DNA of 37,600 nucleotides from Methanocella sp. PtaU1.Bin125 (GTDB lineage Archaea; Halobacteriota; Methanocellia; Methanocellales; Methanocellaceae). The stretch spans positions 1 through 37,600 of the forward strand of contig MVRA01000186.1 in the NCBI GenBank assembly GCA_002067315.1. Reading direction: 5' to 3'. The notes under the pieces are model-generated. The model was not told the DNA's origin. It saw only the letters and a list, made by a program, of their open reading frames with translations, and made no database searches. A program made the translations under genes and the position numbers. This document shows, one piece after another, positions 16,032 to 26,020 of this stretch. Every line of letters starts with the position of its first letter. Positions within the stretch are counted from its first letter, which is position 1.

Positions 16032-16358
16032 TTAACATTTCAGAATAACCGGGCGAGACCAGCGCTTCAGGCAAAGCGTTTATGTGCTTAAAACCATTAG
16101 CTACAAGCAGATTTGTCGCGTCGCGATGTCATGGCGGGCGTAAAAACGCAACGAAAAGGCTGTTCTTCGTCCGGGCCGCCGCGACGCCGCCATGAACGGC
16201 ACTGTCCGGGAGGCCTGGCCCGGCAATGCAATGCCGTATCTGTATTTCATGGACATGGGATTACAGCAGATTACTGTGGTCCTGGAGAGTGTCTGAACTC
16301 TTCACATGGTCGTTGAGAGAAAAAGGGCAATTTCAGCCCTGTTAAACAGGTGATATCT
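16032..16358. other. intergenic region, leader of flavodoxin-like gene with overlapping hairpins
   Basis: No gene is supported here. A TATA-like GTTTATGTGCTTA lies near 16078-16090. Just before the next start codon AGGGC (16324-16328) can pair with GCCCT (16336-16340), while CCTGTT-A-AACAGG (16338-16350) forms a competing palindrome that includes the first bases of the AGGTGAT ribosome site (16348-16354). Confidence 0.5.
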
Positions 16359-17090
16359 ATGAAAGTGCTGGCAATCAACACCAGCCCGGAGAGGGAACGG
16401 AGCGCTGTCTCGCTGCTCCTGGAACCTTTCCTGGACGGGCTGAGGGAGTCCGGGGCGGAAGCGGAGCTTTATTATGCTTGCGACCTGATAATGAGTACAT
16501 CTCCGGAATGCGACGATATTCAGTGGTTGCGGCGGAAGATGGGCAGGGCAGACATCCTCGTCCTTGCCTCGCCGCTTTACTTCGATGGCCGTACCGGCCC
16601 CGAGGGGGCGACGCCATCGCTGAAGATGTTGCTGGAAAGGCTGATCCCCGGGACACAAACGTCCACAGACATGCCTTACGAGCATGCGGCTCACATTGCT
16701 CGAGAGGATGTGGGCCTCAATAAGATCGTCATCGTCTCCGGCAGCGGATTCTGGGAGATCGGCGGCGCCGGCCCGGTGATGAGCAGCGTTGAAAAGCTCT
16801 GCAACGACACGTTTCCCGGGCTCGCGGGCGACATCGCCGCAGGCCGGGGCGTAACGCTCCGGGGCGCGATAACCCGGGGCATGCTGGACTGGGAAGTCAT
16901 CGGCAGGGCCCGGGAGGCCGGCTGCCGGCTGGCGTACGAGGAGGAGGTGCCGCCGACGGCACACGACAGAGCGCGACGGGAGGCCGTGACCCGTGACGTT
17001 TACGGTCAGATCATGAACGCTAATGCCCCCCGGAAAGCCGCATCGCAGCTGGTGCCGGTCCCGGTGAGGTGTGCACAGAAGGAGGATTAG
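16359..17090 (+). CDS. flavodoxin-fold NAD(P)H-dependent FMN reductase-like protein
   Basis: A 243-residue soluble protein. MKVLAINTSPERERSAVSLLLEPFL is the phosphate-binding loop start of the flavodoxin/FMN-reductase fold, and ADILVLASPLYFDGRTGP is the second FMN contact loop, followed by the SLKMLLERLIP helix. No Cys cluster for FeS centres is present, unlike the flavoprotein at 24861. The ATG at 16359 is chosen because AGGTGAT (16348-16354) is well spaced; a GTG three codons earlier is less likely. Its stop codon lies inside the Shine-Dalgarno sequence of the McrD gene (GGAGGATTAG), so the two are translationally coupled. A redox role linked to MCR is suggested by this coupling only. Confidence 0.85.
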   Translation: MKVLAINTSPERERSAVSLLLEPFLDGLRESGAEAELYYACDLIMSTSPECDDIQWLRRKMGRADILVLASPLYFDGRTGPEGATPSLKMLLERLIPGTQTSTDMPYEHAAHIAREDVGLNKIVIVSGSGFWEIGGAGPVMSSVEKLCNDTFPGLAGDIAAGRGVTLRGAITRGMLDWEVIGRAREAGCRLAYEEEVPPTAHDRARREAVTRDVYGQIMNANAPRKAASQLVPVPVRCAQKED

Positions 17091-17094
17091 GAAA

Positions 17095-17601
17095 ATGTCG
17101 AGGTTCAACAAACCCATCTCGGGAAAAACGGACGAGAACGGACGAATGCAGATCGAGGTCTTTCCGCAGCGGGTGCTCAACGTCGAGACCGCCCAGCAGC
17201 TGATCGACGAGCTGAACGCGATCGAGGGCATCAGCCGGATCGTGGTGTTCGGCCCCCGCCTGCCGAAGGAAAACCCGGACGACCTGCTGGACCTGAAGTA
17301 CGGCAAGGTCGAGAAAAAATACCTGAACATCAAGGGCGAGCAGGTCGAGCTCACGGTCCAGGTCGGCCGGATATGGATAGAGATCGAGGGCCCGGAGGTC
17401 GTGGAACAGGTCAGGGCCGCTGCAGAGAAGGCGCTGCCGTTCCCGTTCGAGATGTACGAGGGCCTGTACATCCGGAAACAGAAGACGGTCACCGACTACG
17501 CGCGCAGGGGCGGGAAGGTCGACAAGGTCAACATAGGGCTGTTCGACCCGAAGGACAAGCGAAACCCTGTCTGCTGCAGCGACAAGCATGAGCAGGCGTG
17601 A
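17095..17601 (+). CDS. mcrD: McrD family protein (methyl-coenzyme M reductase operon protein D)
   Basis: A 168-residue McrD homologue, with IEVFPQRVLNVETAQQLIDE at the start, GISRIVVFGPRLPKENP, VELTVQVGRIWIEIEG, and the characteristic LPFPFEMYEGLYIRKQKTVTDYAR near the end. McrD is encoded in mcr operons of methanogens and ANME archaea, is not part of the purified enzyme, and is thought to help MCR assembly or activation. Here no mcrA, mcrB, mcrC or mcrG gene is next to it. It follows a flavodoxin-like gene with coupled translation (GGAGG before the ATG). It may be a second, free-standing McrD, or the only one if this genome has a dispersed mcr set. Family assignment is strong. Confidence 0.92.
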   Translation: MSRFNKPISGKTDENGRMQIEVFPQRVLNVETAQQLIDELNAIEGISRIVVFGPRLPKENPDDLLDLKYGKVEKKYLNIKGEQVELTVQVGRIWIEIEGPEVVEQVRAAAEKALPFPFEMYEGLYIRKQKTVTDYARRGGKVDKVNIGLFDPKDKRNPVCCSDKHEQA

Positions 17602-17887: not shown

Positions 17888-17919
17888 GCTATCGAAACAA
17901 GCGAAACGAGATGAATATC

Positions 17920-18126
17920 ATGAAAATGCCAAAGAAGATCAGGACCTACTGTCCTTTCTGTAAATCGCACCAGGAGCACGAGATCGAGAAAGTCCGGAAA
18001 GGAAAGCCTTCCACGACACACCGTATTGACCGGCAGAAACGGCGGTCGTTCGGCATCGGCAACCGCGGCAAGTTCTCCAAGCGGCCGGGCTTCAGGATCC
18101 GTGTCCTGGTACTGGTGGAAGAGTGA
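17920..18126 (+). CDS. L44e ribosomal protein homologue with internal deletion
   Basis: A 68-residue protein. [29 protein letters not shown] and the following [21 protein letters not shown] are clearly ribosomal protein L44e of the Methanosarcina type. It then jumps directly to [14 protein letters not shown], the usual last residues. L44e is normally about 92-95 residues. The missing segment of roughly 25 residues is the one with the second Cys pair (the CxxC of the zinc site), so only CPFC remains and the zinc finger is incomplete. The frame is intact and the start has an SD-like GAGATGA (17909-17915). The usual neighbour S27e is absent. It is probably an extra, diverged copy; if it were the only copy that would be remarkable. 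Confidence 0.8.
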
Positions 18127-19132: not shown

Positions 19133-19195
19133 GGCTATAAATAGCCTGGCTGACTATTGGTTACCCCCATAACCATCGGTTAGAAATATAAATTT
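19133..19195 (+). promoter_or_regulatory. TetR-ABC operon promoter and operator
   Basis: GGCTATAAATAGCC (19133-19146) is a perfect palindrome containing a TATA box, and GGTTA-ccccca-TAACC (19159-19174) is a perfect dyad with a further GGTTAG half-site at 19178-19183. A second TATA-like TATAAATT (19188-19195) lies about 27 bases before an in-frame GTG at 19219. The dyad is the best candidate for the TetR protein's own operator. Confidence 0.6.
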
Positions 19196-19203
19196 AAGTT
19201 ACA

Positions 19204-19872
19204 ATGCTGGTGACAACGGTGTCGATCAAAGAGCTGAAAGAACGGGAAAAGGAGCAGCGGCGCGAGTACATTATCGATGCGGCGGAGAAACTGTTCTTCG
19301 CACGGGGCTACGACAGCGTCTCGATGAGCGAGATAGCCTACGCAGTCGGGATGAACAAGGCCACGCTCTACCTGTACTTCGAGAACAAGGACGCGCTCTA
19401 CTTCGCCATCGTGCGCCGCGGCGTCCGGATCATGCACGGGCTGTTCCGGGAGAAGATCGAGAAGGCAGCCACCAGCATTGAAAAAATCAGGGCCTCGGGC
19501 GACGCATTCCTGGAGTTCAACCGGCAGTATCCCCACTACTACCGCATGTTCCGCCACGCGGGCTCCGGGCGCTTCGATGCCCCGGGCAGCGCGGACGCGG
19601 CCGAGGTCGCCCGGCTGTCCGGCGACATCTTTGCCATGATGGGCAGGGCCGTCGTCACCGGCATGGCCGACGGCACGATCCGGAAGGGCCTGGACCCGAC
19701 GGTCGTCGCCATCTACCTGGCCGTCGCCTCCGAGGCCGTCGTCAACCTGCCCTCGAACTTCGTCGACACCCTCGCGAGCCAGGGCATCAGCCACGAGCAG
19801 TTCATCGAAAGTACCATGGAGCTCATGCAGTCCTCCATAGCGACGCAACCGCAGACCAAGAAGAGTGATTAA
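19204..19872 (+). CDS. TetR/AcrR family transcriptional regulator
   Basis: A 222-residue one-component repressor. The N-terminal helix-turn-helix is clear: YIIDAAEKLFFARGYDSVSMSEIAYAVGMNKATLYLYFENKDALYFAIV (about 21-70). The remaining all-helical part is the ligand-binding/dimer domain. The ATG at 19204 has no Shine-Dalgarno site; a leaderless start at GTG 19219 (VSIKELKERE) fits the nearby TATA-like box and would shorten the protein by five residues. The stop codon is directly followed by the ATG of the ABC ATPase gene, so it is the first gene of a three-gene exporter operon that it most likely represses. Confidence 0.93.
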   Translation: MLVTTVSIKELKEREKEQRREYIIDAAEKLFFARGYDSVSMSEIAYAVGMNKATLYLYFENKDALYFAIVRRGVRIMHGLFREKIEKAATSIEKIRASGDAFLEFNRQYPHYYRMFRHAGSGRFDAPGSADAAEVARLSGDIFAMMGRAVVTGMADGTIRKGLDPTVVAIYLAVASEAVVNLPSNFVDTLASQGISHEQFIESTMELMQSSIATQPQTKKSD

Positions 19873-20802
19873 ATGACAGAGAACGTCATCGAGGTCAGAT
19901 CCCTCGTGAAGAAATACGGCAGCTTCACCGCCGTCGACGACATTTCGTTCGACATCCGGAAGGGCGAGGTCTTCGCCTTCCTGGGGCCCAACGGCGCCGG
20001 CAAGACGACGACCGTGGAGATTCTGGAGTGCCTGAAGTCGCCTACGTCGGGCAGTATCAGCGTCCTGGGCCACGACATCAGGAAGGACGAGCTGAAGATC
20101 AAGGAGAAGATCGGCGTGATGCCGCAGAGCTTCTGTGCCTTCGAGTGGCTGACCGTGCGGGAGAACGTCGACTACTTCGGCCAGATGTACCGCAGGCACG
20201 AGGATGTCGACCGCCTAATTGACATGTTCGACCTGAAGGACAAGCGGAACACGCTGTTCAAGAACCTGTCGGGCGGCCTGAAGCAGCGGGTGGGCATCGC
20301 TATCGCGCTGGTCAACGACCCGGAGATCGTGTTCCTCGACGAGCCGACCACCGGGCTGGACCCGAGGGCCAGGCGGGACGTGTGGGACGCCATCAAGGCG
20401 CTAAAGGCTAAGGGCAAGACGGTGTTCCTGACCACCCACTACATGGACGAGGCGTACTATCTCGCGGACCGCGTCGACGTCATTCACAGGGGCAAGATCA
20501 TCGCCGACGGCTCCCCCGAGGACCTGATCAACCGGTACGGCGGCGGCAACACGCTCATCATCCGGGAGTGCAGCGCCACGGCCCGGGACCGGCTGCTTAA
20601 AGAGATACCCGGCAGCCGGGCGTCGGGCAACGACGTGCTCGCGTCGCTCCCGCACGGGAACGGCATGGGCAGCATCATGAAGGCAGTGTCGGCCATCAAC
20701 GGGGGCGGCCTCGCCTGCAAGGAAATCTACGTGAAAAAGTCGACGCTGGAGGACGTGTTCCTCAACCTGACCGGCGAGACCCTCGCGCAGGAGGCGAACT
20801 AG
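19873..20802 (+). CDS. ABC-2 type exporter, ATP-binding protein
   Basis: A 309-residue ABC ATPase. Walker A is GPNGAGKTT (38-46), the signature is LSGGLKQRV, Walker B is IVFLDEPTTGLDP and the switch His lies in FLTTHYMDEA. The long C-terminal domain, ending KSTLEDVFLNLTGE, is typical of DrrA/CcmA-like drug or lipid exporters of the ABC-2 class. It acts at the inner face of the membrane with the permease encoded immediately downstream (stop and ATG adjacent). Confidence 0.95.
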   Translation: MTENVIEVRSLVKKYGSFTAVDDISFDIRKGEVFAFLGPNGAGKTTTVEILECLKSPTSGSISVLGHDIRKDELKIKEKIGVMPQSFCAFEWLTVRENVDYFGQMYRRHEDVDRLIDMFDLKDKRNTLFKNLSGGLKQRVGIAIALVNDPEIVFLDEPTTGLDPRARRDVWDAIKALKAKGKTVFLTTHYMDEAYYLADRVDVIHRGKIIADGSPEDLINRYGGGNTLIIRECSATARDRLLKEIPGSRASGNDVLASLPHGNGMGSIMKAVSAINGGGLACKEIYVKKSTLEDVFLNLTGETLAQEAN

Positions 20803-21903
20803 ATGGTCCGGCTGCTCACCGAGGTCAAGTACAGCCTCCTGTCGTTCTTCCGGAACAAGGGCGCCGTCTTCTGGACGCTGCTCTTCCCCATCGTGATCCT
20901 GCTGCTGCTCGGCTACGTGATGGGCGGCGGGGACGGCTCGTACGTGCTGTACTACAATGACTCGGATAATTCTCAGACATCCCGCGGCATCCTCCAGGCG
21001 CTGAACAACACCACGGTCATCGAGCTGAAGGACGGCGCGGGCATGGACCTGCAGCAGCAGCTGAAGGACGGCAAGATCAGCATATACCTCGAGATCCAGG
21101 CGGGATTCGAGCAGGGCATCGTGCAGGCGAAGATGGCCGGCGGCAACGCCACCGCTCCCGCGCTGCAGATCTACTACGACAAGTCCAGGCCCTCCTCGCT
21201 GGCGCTGATCTCCATCCTGAACGAGGTGATCAACGGGCTCAACATGCGGCTGGCCAACGCCGTGCCCGTGGTCGGCGCGCAGGCCCACGACGTCGCCACC
21301 CAGAGCGTCAGCTACTTCGCCTTCCTGCTCCCCGGCATCATCGGCATGTCCATCATGTCGTCGGCCGTCAACGGCACCGTGGGCATGATGGCCCACAACC
21401 GGGCCACCGGGGTCTTCCGGAAGCTGGCGACCACGCCGATCTCCCGGGTCGTCTGGAACGCGGGCCGCATCATCCAGATGACGATCATCCTGATGATCTC
21501 GACCGCGATAGCGATGGTCGCCGGCTACATGGCCTTCGGGGTGGTGCCGAACGTCAACCCGATGATGGTCGTCATGATCGTGGCCGGCGGCGCCGTGTTC
21601 TCGGGCCTGGGCATGATCATCGCCAGCTTCATCAAGGACGAGGAGACGGCGGCCAACGCGGCCAGCGCGCTGACCTTCCCGCTCATGTTCGTCTCGGGGT
21701 CGTTCTTCCCGGTCGAGCAGATGCCCTGGTTCCTCCGGTACCTGGCGATGGTCTCGCCGCTGACCTACCTGAACGACGGCCTGCGAAGCTCGATGATTAC
21801 GGGCAACAACGAGGTGGCATTGTTCAGCCTCGCCGTCGTCGGCGCGGTCGGGGTCGTGCTGTTCGTGGTCGGGGTGCTCGTGATGAAGTGGAAGGAAGAT
21901 TAA
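20803..21903 (+). CDS. ABC-2 type exporter, permease
   Basis: A 366-residue membrane protein. One N-terminal helix (FWTLLFPIVILLLLGYVMGG) is followed by an extracytoplasmic domain of about 130 residues (residues 40-165) and then five helices, with the ABC-2 landmark RATGVFRKLATTPISR before helix 3 and the FPLMFVSGSFFPVEQMPWFLRYLA block near the end. This is the YhaP/DrrB-like topology. The exported substrate is unknown; TetR control suggests a toxic or signalling compound. Confidence 0.94.
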   Translation: MVRLLTEVKYSLLSFFRNKGAVFWTLLFPIVILLLLGYVMGGGDGSYVLYYNDSDNSQTSRGILQALNNTTVIELKDGAGMDLQQQLKDGKISIYLEIQAGFEQGIVQAKMAGGNATAPALQIYYDKSRPSSLALISILNEVINGLNMRLANAVPVVGAQAHDVATQSVSYFAFLLPGIIGMSIMSSAVNGTVGMMAHNRATGVFRKLATTPISRVVWNAGRIIQMTIILMISTAIAMVAGYMAFGVVPNVNPMMVVMIVAGGAVFSGLGMIIASFIKDEETAANAASALTFPLMFVSGSFFPVEQMPWFLRYLAMVSPLTYLNDGLRSSMITGNNEVALFSLAVVGAVGVVLFVVGVLVMKWKED

Positions 21904-22102: not shown

Positions 22103-22129
22103 TTATCAGGAATTACCGGAGATATGGCA

Positions 22130-22756
22130 ATGTCAGGCACTGATGATTTTGGCTATCTAGAAAAGCTCGCCCGTGACCTCGGCGCCGTCGACGCGAAAGT
22201 CATCCCGGCGGACCGGGTGTTCGTCGAGGACCGGGTGGTGCTCAAGTGCCGGTCGGGCTGCGTCGGCTACGGCAAAAAGCTCACCTGCCCGCCGCACGCG
22301 CCCACGCCGGCCGAGTTCAGGAAAATCCTGGGCGAGTACGGCCATGTGATGCTGGTCAAGTTCAGGTCCCCCGCAAGCGCCAGCGGCGACGTGGTGCGAT
22401 CGATCTACAAATACTGGCTCGACCCCGCCGCCCCCGGGGACAAAAAGAGGGAAGCCTCGAAGTTCTGGGCCGACTACTTCGAGTACAGCAAGACCATGCA
22501 CGGCATCATGCTGGAGCTGGAGAAGGCGGCCTTCAACCGGGGCAACACCTTCGCGCTGGCCCTGGTGAACGGCTCCTGCCGCCTGTGCGAGAAGTGTAAC
22601 GTGGAGAACGGCATCTGCCTCCACCCGACGCAGGCCCGCATCCCCGAGCACGCCGTGGGTATCAACATGAAAAAGACGGCGGAGCAGGCGGGCATGGGGC
22701 TGAAGTTCCCGGTGGAAGGGCACCCGGAGCCGATGGCCGTGCTGCTCATCGACTGA
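22130..22756 (+). CDS. DUF2284 predicted metal-binding protein
   Basis: A 208-residue soluble Cys-rich protein of the DUF2284 family. It has CRSGCVGYGKKLTCPPHAPTP near residue 40 and a C-terminal CRLCEKCNVENGICLHPTQARIPEHAVGI, the typical cysteine set thought to bind an FeS cluster or metal. The family is common in methanogens and strict anaerobes; its reaction is unknown. Start: ATG 22130 is preferred over ATG 22124 because GGAGAT at 22118-22123 abuts the first but is six bases from the second. Confidence 0.87.
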   Translation: MSGTDDFGYLEKLARDLGAVDAKVIPADRVFVEDRVVLKCRSGCVGYGKKLTCPPHAPTPAEFRKILGEYGHVMLVKFRSPASASGDVVRSIYKYWLDPAAPGDKKREASKFWADYFEYSKTMHGIMLELEKAAFNRGNTFALALVNGSCRLCEKCNVENGICLHPTQARIPEHAVGINMKKTAEQAGMGLKFPVEGHPEPMAVLLID

Positions 22757-24860: not shown

Positions 24861-25463
24861 ATGAAGGTGTTCGGCATCTGCGGCAGCCCGCGCCTGGGCG
24901 GTACCGACTATGCGGTGAACTACGCGCTCAACCTCCTCAAAGAGAAGGGGTGCGAGACGAGATATTTCCACGTCAGGGGCAAGGACATCCGGTTCTGCAT
25001 CCACTGCGATTATTGCGTCCGGGAGCAGAAGGGCTGCGTCCACAAGGACACGCTCACGCCCGAGTTCTACGAGGGCATGATGTGGGCCGACGGCGTCGTC
25101 ATCGGCACGCCCTGCTACCAGGGCACGCTGAGCGGGCAGACGAAGACGCTGATGGACCGGTGCCGGGCGGTCCTCGCGAAAGACCCGCTCATCCTGAAAG
25201 GCAAGGTCGGCATGGGCCTGGCCGTCGGCGGCGACCGCAGTGGCGGCCAGGAGATCGCGCTGACGACGATCAACAACTTCTTCATCCTCAACGAGATGTA
25301 CCCGTGCGGCGGCGGCTCGTTCGGCGCGAACCTCGGCGGCTCCCTCTGGTCCCACGATAAGGGAAAAGACGGTATCGCCGCCGACGAGGACGGCCTGCGG
25401 ACGGTACGGAAGACGGTGAAGCGGTTCTACGACATGATGGAAAAGGCCAGGAGTGGTACCTGA
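24861..25463 (+). CDS. iron-sulfur flavoprotein (Isf-type FMN reductase)
   Basis: A 200-residue flavodoxin-fold protein with FMN loops GSPRLGGTDYAVNYAL at the N-terminus and GTPCYQGTLSGQTKTLMDR in the middle. Between them CIHCDYCVREQKGC (C-x2-C-x2-C-x6-C) is the compact Cys motif of the Isf family that binds a 4Fe-4S cluster. Isf proteins in methanogens accept electrons from ferredoxin and are implicated in oxygen or peroxide reduction. Its stop overlaps the start of the AfpA gene (TGATG), so both are made together. GAGGTT precedes the ATG. Confidence 0.92.
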   Translation: MKVFGICGSPRLGGTDYAVNYALNLLKEKGCETRYFHVRGKDIRFCIHCDYCVREQKGCVHKDTLTPEFYEGMMWADGVVIGTPCYQGTLSGQTKTLMDRCRAVLAKDPLILKGKVGMGLAVGGDRSGGQEIALTTINNFFILNEMYPCGGGSFGANLGGSLWSHDKGKDGIAADEDGLRTVRKTVKRFYDMMEKARSGT

Positions 25464-26020
25464 TGGTAAAGATCGCATGGGGCATAACCGGCTGCGGCGA
25501 CAAGATCGAGGAGATCGCCGCCACGATGATCGAGCTCAAGAGGCAGTACGACCTGAAAGTCGACATCTACGTCTCGAAAAGCGCGATGATGGTGCTGAAA
25601 TGGTACAAGCTCTGGGATAAGCTGAAGGACGAGTTCTACGAGCTCCGCCCGGAGGTGAACTCGAATTCGCCGTTCCTGGTCGGCAAGCTCCAGACCGGGC
25701 ATTACGACATGTTCATCGTCGCCCCGGTGACCGCGAACTCGGCGGCCAAGATCGCTTACGGCATATCGGACACGCTCATGACGAACGCCGTCTCCCAGGG
25801 CGCCAAGGCCAACGTGCCCATCTACCTGTTCCCGCCCGACAACAAGCCCGGCGAGCTGGAGACCATCCTGCCCGGCGGCAAGAAGCTCACCCTGTACATC
25901 CGGGACGTCGACGTGGAGAACGTGGATAAAATCAGGAAGATGAAGAGCATCACCGTGCTGGACAGCGTACAGGACATCCGCCGGGTCGTCGAGGACTACG
26001 TGAAGACGCACCCGCAGTAG
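25463..26020 (+). CDS. afpA: archaeoflavoprotein AfpA
   Basis: A 185-residue flavoprotein of the archaeal AfpA family (flavoprotein/decarboxylase-like fold). MVKIAWGITGCGDKIEEIAATM begins the FMN-binding Rossmann-like fold, and YDMFIVAPVTANSAAKIAYGISDTLMTNAVSQ is the signature block. The archaeal AfpA is reduced by ferredoxin and can pass electrons to a partner flavoprotein. The overlapping Isf gene upstream is the natural partner, so the pair likely forms a short ferredoxin-to-acceptor electron chain, perhaps for oxidative stress defence. Confidence 0.93.
   Translation: MVKIAWGITGCGDKIEEIAATMIELKRQYDLKVDIYVSKSAMMVLKWYKLWDKLKDEFYELRPEVNSNSPFLVGKLQTGHYDMFIVAPVTANSAAKIAYGISDTLMTNAVSQGAKANVPIYLFPPDNKPGELETILPGGKKLTLYIRDVDVENVDKIRKMKSITVLDSVQDIRRVVEDYVKTHPQ

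Follow-up and report, generated by a model that had tools for sequence, protein, structure and literature searches.

Work on McrD has so far dealt almost exclusively with the protein in its mcr operon context, and the present locus raises the question of why a gene for this protein stands directly behind a flavodoxin-like gene, and whether the two act together. The window, that is the whole stretch of 37,600 nucleotides analysed here, is an entire contig (C186) of a 3.24-Mb genome (G000). Our comparisons within its family, which we take to be Methanocellaceae, rest on four genomes, G000 and its relatives G001, G002 and G003. The gene order at the locus is Fpr (the flavodoxin-like protein), McrD2, a partial L44e gene, PadR, a small membrane protein, TetR, two ABC transporter genes and DUF2284, with the following features:

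16359..17090, + strand: Fpr, a divergent FMN_red/flavodoxin-fold protein of 243 aa (Pfam PF03358, E 6.6e-9)
17081..17090, + strand: GGAGG (Shine-Dalgarno) and then the stop codon TAG of Fpr, with the McrD2 start 4 nt further on (read from the sequence)
17095..17601, + strand: McrD2, an orphan second McrD copy of 168 aa (PF02505, E 1.7e-46; TIGR03260 over cut-off)
19151..19201, no strand assigned: three 13-bp palindrome-like sites, TGACTATTGGTTA, TAACCATCGGTTA and TAAATTTAAGTTA (the third weak), 19 bp apart, a putative TetR operator array (read from the sequence)
19204..19872, + strand: TetR-family regulator (PF00440, E 6.8e-18; TetR tree 99/99)
19873..20802, + strand: ABC transporter ATPase of the drug-efflux type, DrrA-like (PF00005; TIGR01188 at 281.8 bits, under its cut-off of 312)
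20803..21903, + strand: ABC-2 type membrane subunit (PF12698, E 2.3e-37)
22124..22756, + strand: DUF2284 predicted metal-binding protein (PF10050, E 1.7e-42; homologue in L012)

McrD2 matches PF02505 over the full domain with 158 bits (cut-off 25) and TIGR03260 with 122.6 bits (cut-off 100), a full-length match above both curated cut-offs, and it also matches the solved McrD structures 8gf5/8gf6 and 8w33 (phmmer E 7e-33 for 8gf5). Unlike McrD as otherwise known, it is a duplicate specific to the family, follows a flavoprotein gene and belongs to no mcr or mrt operon. The initial annotation had placed this McrD away from mcr genes and proposed looking for a second copy in an mcr operon. Both points are borne out, as the neighbours of McrD2 in the window are not mcr genes and the other mcrD of the genome (McrD1) lies on contig C205 within a complete mcrB-mcrD-mcrC-mcrG-mcrA operon. 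All four Methanocellaceae genomes contain exactly two mcrD genes, one operon copy and one orphan. In a tree of 50 McrD proteins, the eight proteins of the family form one group (100/100) within which McrD1 and McrD2 are set apart (100/98), and by this topology a single duplication inside Methanocellaceae appears to fit best, the root within the group not being fixed (G001 McrD2 is the first branch in the tree as drawn). Judged by its substitutions, McrD2 is still under purifying selection, with a divergence close to that of McrD1 (window versus G002: dN 0.18 and dS 0.62 for McrD2, dN 0.18 and dS 0.90 for McrD1). In most Methanocellaceae McrDs of both copies, a Cys-Cys pair is present near the C-terminus (17563-17598 for McrD2 of the window); none was seen in the compared McrDs of other families.

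An mcrD gene is found in 188 of 393 genomes of the phylum. Most second copies in the sample opened outside Methanocellaceae are part of mcr operons or of mrt operons that often lack mcrC. Such mrt-type second operons (mcrBDGA without mcrC) of other methanogen families likewise supply a second mcrD, which, unlike McrD2, remains with mcrB, G and A. Further orphans in this sample occur in G384 (very divergent), G336 and G363, none of them beside a flavoprotein. The orphan of G336 lies upstream of three same-strand genes for iron-sulfur proteins that by eye are of the HdrB/HdrC type (L032, 2849-6043, minus strand). In addition, three genomes of family f8 show short, weak second McrD-like matches outside mcr operons (L078 at G010:C3:190663, L079 and L080; E 1e-13 to 5e-7). 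Two f22/g43 genomes have an FMN_red gene divergent from an mrt-type operon lacking mcrC (L017, 3121-3933, minus strand; L018, 8089-8916, plus strand); these genes match the profile strongly and fall in a distant subgroup, again placing a flavodoxin-fold protein beside mcr genes.

The translational coupling of McrD2 to the flavodoxin-like gene, as described initially, is evident at the junction (AGGAGGATTAGGAAAATG). GGAGG stands immediately 5' of the Fpr stop codon (17088-17090), at normal spacing from the McrD2 ATG at 17095, and the genes are separated by 4 nt. Since tight junctions are ordinary in the window (0-nt gaps at TetR/ABC, 19872/19873, and at ABC/ABC, 20802/20803), we take the coupling as evidence for cotranscription within an operon rather than as a special device. 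Our comparison reveals that conservation of the pair is partial, with a shared operon in three of the four Methanocellaceae genomes. Fpr and McrD2 are adjacent on the same strand in the window and in G001 (gap of 18 nt), and in G003 an MFS efflux gene lies between them on that strand (gaps of 1 and 16 nt). The order in G001, all on one strand, is ABC genes, DUF2284, ABC ATPase, TetR, Fpr and McrD2, so that the DUF2284 gene belongs to the same island there; in G003 it is TetR, Fpr, MFS and McrD2. In G002, which is of the same genus as the others, McrD2 is found alone between unrelated genes, with neither a flavoprotein nor an operator beside it. McrD2 is the constant part of the arrangement, and the flavoprotein is the weaker partner, which has been selectively lost.

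Fpr shares its N-terminal domain and its tree grouping with the NADPH-dependent FMN reductase family. Its PF03358 match reaches 35.9 bits against a cut-off of 24 and covers residues 1-80 only; a Flavodoxin_2 match (E 3.4e-4) falls under its cut-off, no other Pfam family and no NCBIfam family matched, and the profiles of both collections gave no homology to McrC, Mmp3, Mmp7, Mmp17 or A2. A sequence search for solved relatives gave only 7d38, with an alignment to the first 94 positions, and AlphaFold modelled the window protein alone, from a single sequence, with a mean pLDDT of 53.8, which does not suffice for a fold search. Full-length homologues are present in G001 (43% identical) and G003 (39%). 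G002 has no Fpr, its best match being a different FMN_red gene (E 1.7e-14, first 109 positions only).

The Halobacteriota subgroup of PF03358 carries a PCxGEFNCW..GKC cysteine loop, which an 11-residue deletion takes out of the window protein. The phosphate-loop GNT, the SNC motif and the RPHG stretch are lost as well; at the flavin site, S9 and P10 are kept, and N16, T17, D101, N136, C137 and the RPHG stretch are changed. By comparison, G003 Fpr retains the phosphate-loop GNT and the loop cysteines, and the phosphate loop of G001 Fpr is shorter by four residues. In 21 canonical relatives, 75 columns are conserved, and G003 keeps 58 of these, G001 48 and the window 44. The FMN-binding character suggested for the flavodoxin-like protein thus stands as a family assignment above cut-off, while binding by the window protein is doubtful with several flavin-site residues changed. 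The window protein evolves fast, and no other end branch within the main group of the flavoprotein tree is as long as its own (1.42). Its codon-position differences still resemble those of a protein under selection, and we therefore call it probably eroded or repurposed, not a pseudogene.

Specific features of the promoters point to TetR control. The Fpr promoters of G001 and G003 each carry three 13-bp palindromes, TAACTA-N-TAGTTA, 18 bp apart and beside the TetR gene. The sites before the window TetR gene are less perfect, and the one operon of the window that this array heads is the TetR-ABC efflux operon, 2 kb downstream of Fpr-McrD2; the window Fpr-McrD2 promoter has no operator array, with one weak isolated site at 16091. 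Because the motif was derived from these three loci before the genome-wide search, its genome-wide association with TetR genes is the independent part of the evidence. The paired motif occurs at nine places in the four genomes searched, and all nine adjoin a TetR gene of the same subfamily, against one match in all for the reversed control pattern. Furthermore, none of 200 Markov resamples contained such a triple, for each of the three loci.

In the TetR tree, the G001 and G003 proteins are sisters (100/99) and belong, together with the window TetR and a TetR of G197, to a clade of five (99/99). Next to the G197 gene stand two canonical Fpr genes but no mcrD, and an operator was looked for in its vicinity and not found. 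A further locus of G003 (L082) contains TetR, operator, methyltransferase and an ABC operon without McrD2. The TetR-ABC operon of the window is therefore best seen as this second branch of the regulon, and not as a partner that Fpr-McrD2 has lost. Further TetR paralogues of this subfamily stand directly before flavodoxin-domain genes at L085 (7515-8653) and L086 (5962-7682), so the link between TetR and flavodoxin recurs in these genomes. The regulation is not conserved with McrD2, since the window Fpr-McrD2 promoter lacks the array and McrD2 of G002 has neither flavoprotein nor operator beside it.

TetR-controlled flavoreductase or efflux regulons exist in bacteria, for example NemR-NemA, where a TetR regulator and a palindromic operator are likewise combined with genes for flavin-type reductases or for efflux. 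The McrD2 operon differs in being archaeal, in its unrelated reductase family and in having an MCR-assembly chaperone as its last gene.

Taken together, we regard it as about evenly balanced whether McrD2 is an MCR-assembly chaperone that was duplicated and then recruited into a flavoprotein/efflux operon under TetR control, which has partly decayed in the window. McrD2 would then be a true McrD, an MCR-assembly and F430-loading chaperone born by duplication within Methanocellaceae and put at the end of a TetR-controlled operon, behind the gene for a flavodoxin-fold reductase and, in one genome, also that for an MFS efflux pump. In the relatives with the better preserved operon, the genes would stay repressed by TetR until a ligand lifts the repression, probably a toxic or redox-active compound; this compound would then be handled by flavoprotein and pump, and the extra McrD would aid MCR assembly or repair. 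In the window this arrangement would have eroded, leaving the operator only on the TetR-ABC operon and McrD2 translationally linked to an altered flavoprotein. The simplest history would be that a TetR-controlled flavoprotein operon received an mcrD duplicate, with G003 fairly intact, G001 reduced, the window off the operator with a damaged flavoprotein, and G002 left with McrD2 alone. Against recruitment speak the regulation, which is not conserved with McrD2, and the sequence of the window McrD2, which has lost seven of the 24 positions that other McrDs conserve (its McrD1 has lost four). McrD binds MCR in M. acetivorans and has a part in its assembly and in the handling of F430 (PMC11301259), while F430 is reduced by the McrC-Mmp complex (PMC12176620). 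Conditional assembly support, rather than electron transfer by the flavoprotein, is therefore the useful hypothesis.

The initial annotation had offered the pair as a unit for the reductive activation of MCR. On such a reading the flavoprotein would pass low-potential electrons for activation with McrD2 as docking partner, as the operon layout in three genomes and the binding of McrD to MCR in M. acetivorans (PMC11301259) might suggest. We consider this highly improbable and find no support for it: McrD2 persists in G002, where the flavoprotein is absent, the cysteine loop and part of the flavin motifs are gone from the window copy, the G001 phosphate loop is shortened, and members of the wider Fpr orthologue group occur in several families, among others in f5 genomes in which no mcrD matched. 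In addition, the published activation complex consists of McrC, Mmp7, Mmp17, Mmp3 and A2, with neither McrD nor a flavoprotein (PMC12176620). The tempting view of the flavoprotein as an F430 reducer is thereby corrected. A literature search for McrD together with flavodoxin found no paper.

A less probable but substantial alternative to recruitment is that the duplicate simply came to lie behind a flavoprotein/efflux operon unrelated to it and was kept for dosage, with flavoprotein and TetR having no functional link to MCR. The solitary McrD2 of G002, its retention while the flavoprotein erodes and the wide occurrence of the flavoprotein family with no mcrD beside it would all fit such chance placement, but the shared operon survives in three lineages with different flanks and operator arrays head it in two of the three. 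It is rather improbable that McrD2 has instead taken on a new job separate from assembly, for example the binding of F430 or a different tetrapyrrole away from MCR. Three changes in the window McrD2, M12F, L45I and G75L, at positions that are conserved in other McrDs and unchanged in its McrD1, speak for a new role; the overall divergence of McrD2 and the selection on it, both close to those of McrD1, speak against it. If recruitment is extended to a true protection module of Methanocellaceae, in which a TetR-type sensor would jointly induce reductase, efflux pump and spare chaperone when a compound threatens the nickel enzyme, the proposal becomes speculative, and we hold it to be unlikely.

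The conserved orphan McrD2, apparently under TetR control in two genomes, offers a natural means of separating McrD from MCR expression. Under the recruitment reading, it would tie MCR assembly to a chemical-stress response, which is relevant to the tolerance of methanogens to inhibitors.

Other features of the window concern its history. An Rfam search of the window gave no match. Between McrD2 and PadR lies a partial gene for ribosomal protein L44e (17911-18126, 71 aa, covering profile positions 1-41 of 76); as an intact L44e on contig C51 has 79% DNA identity to it over 184 bp, it would seem to be a partial duplicate of some age and a trace of rearrangement. At 24861-26020, an FMN_red gene overlaps by one base the start of a gene for the archaeoflavoprotein AfpA (TIGR02699, 257 bits against 192); G002 has a corresponding pair near its McrD2, with an identity of about 82% in both cases.
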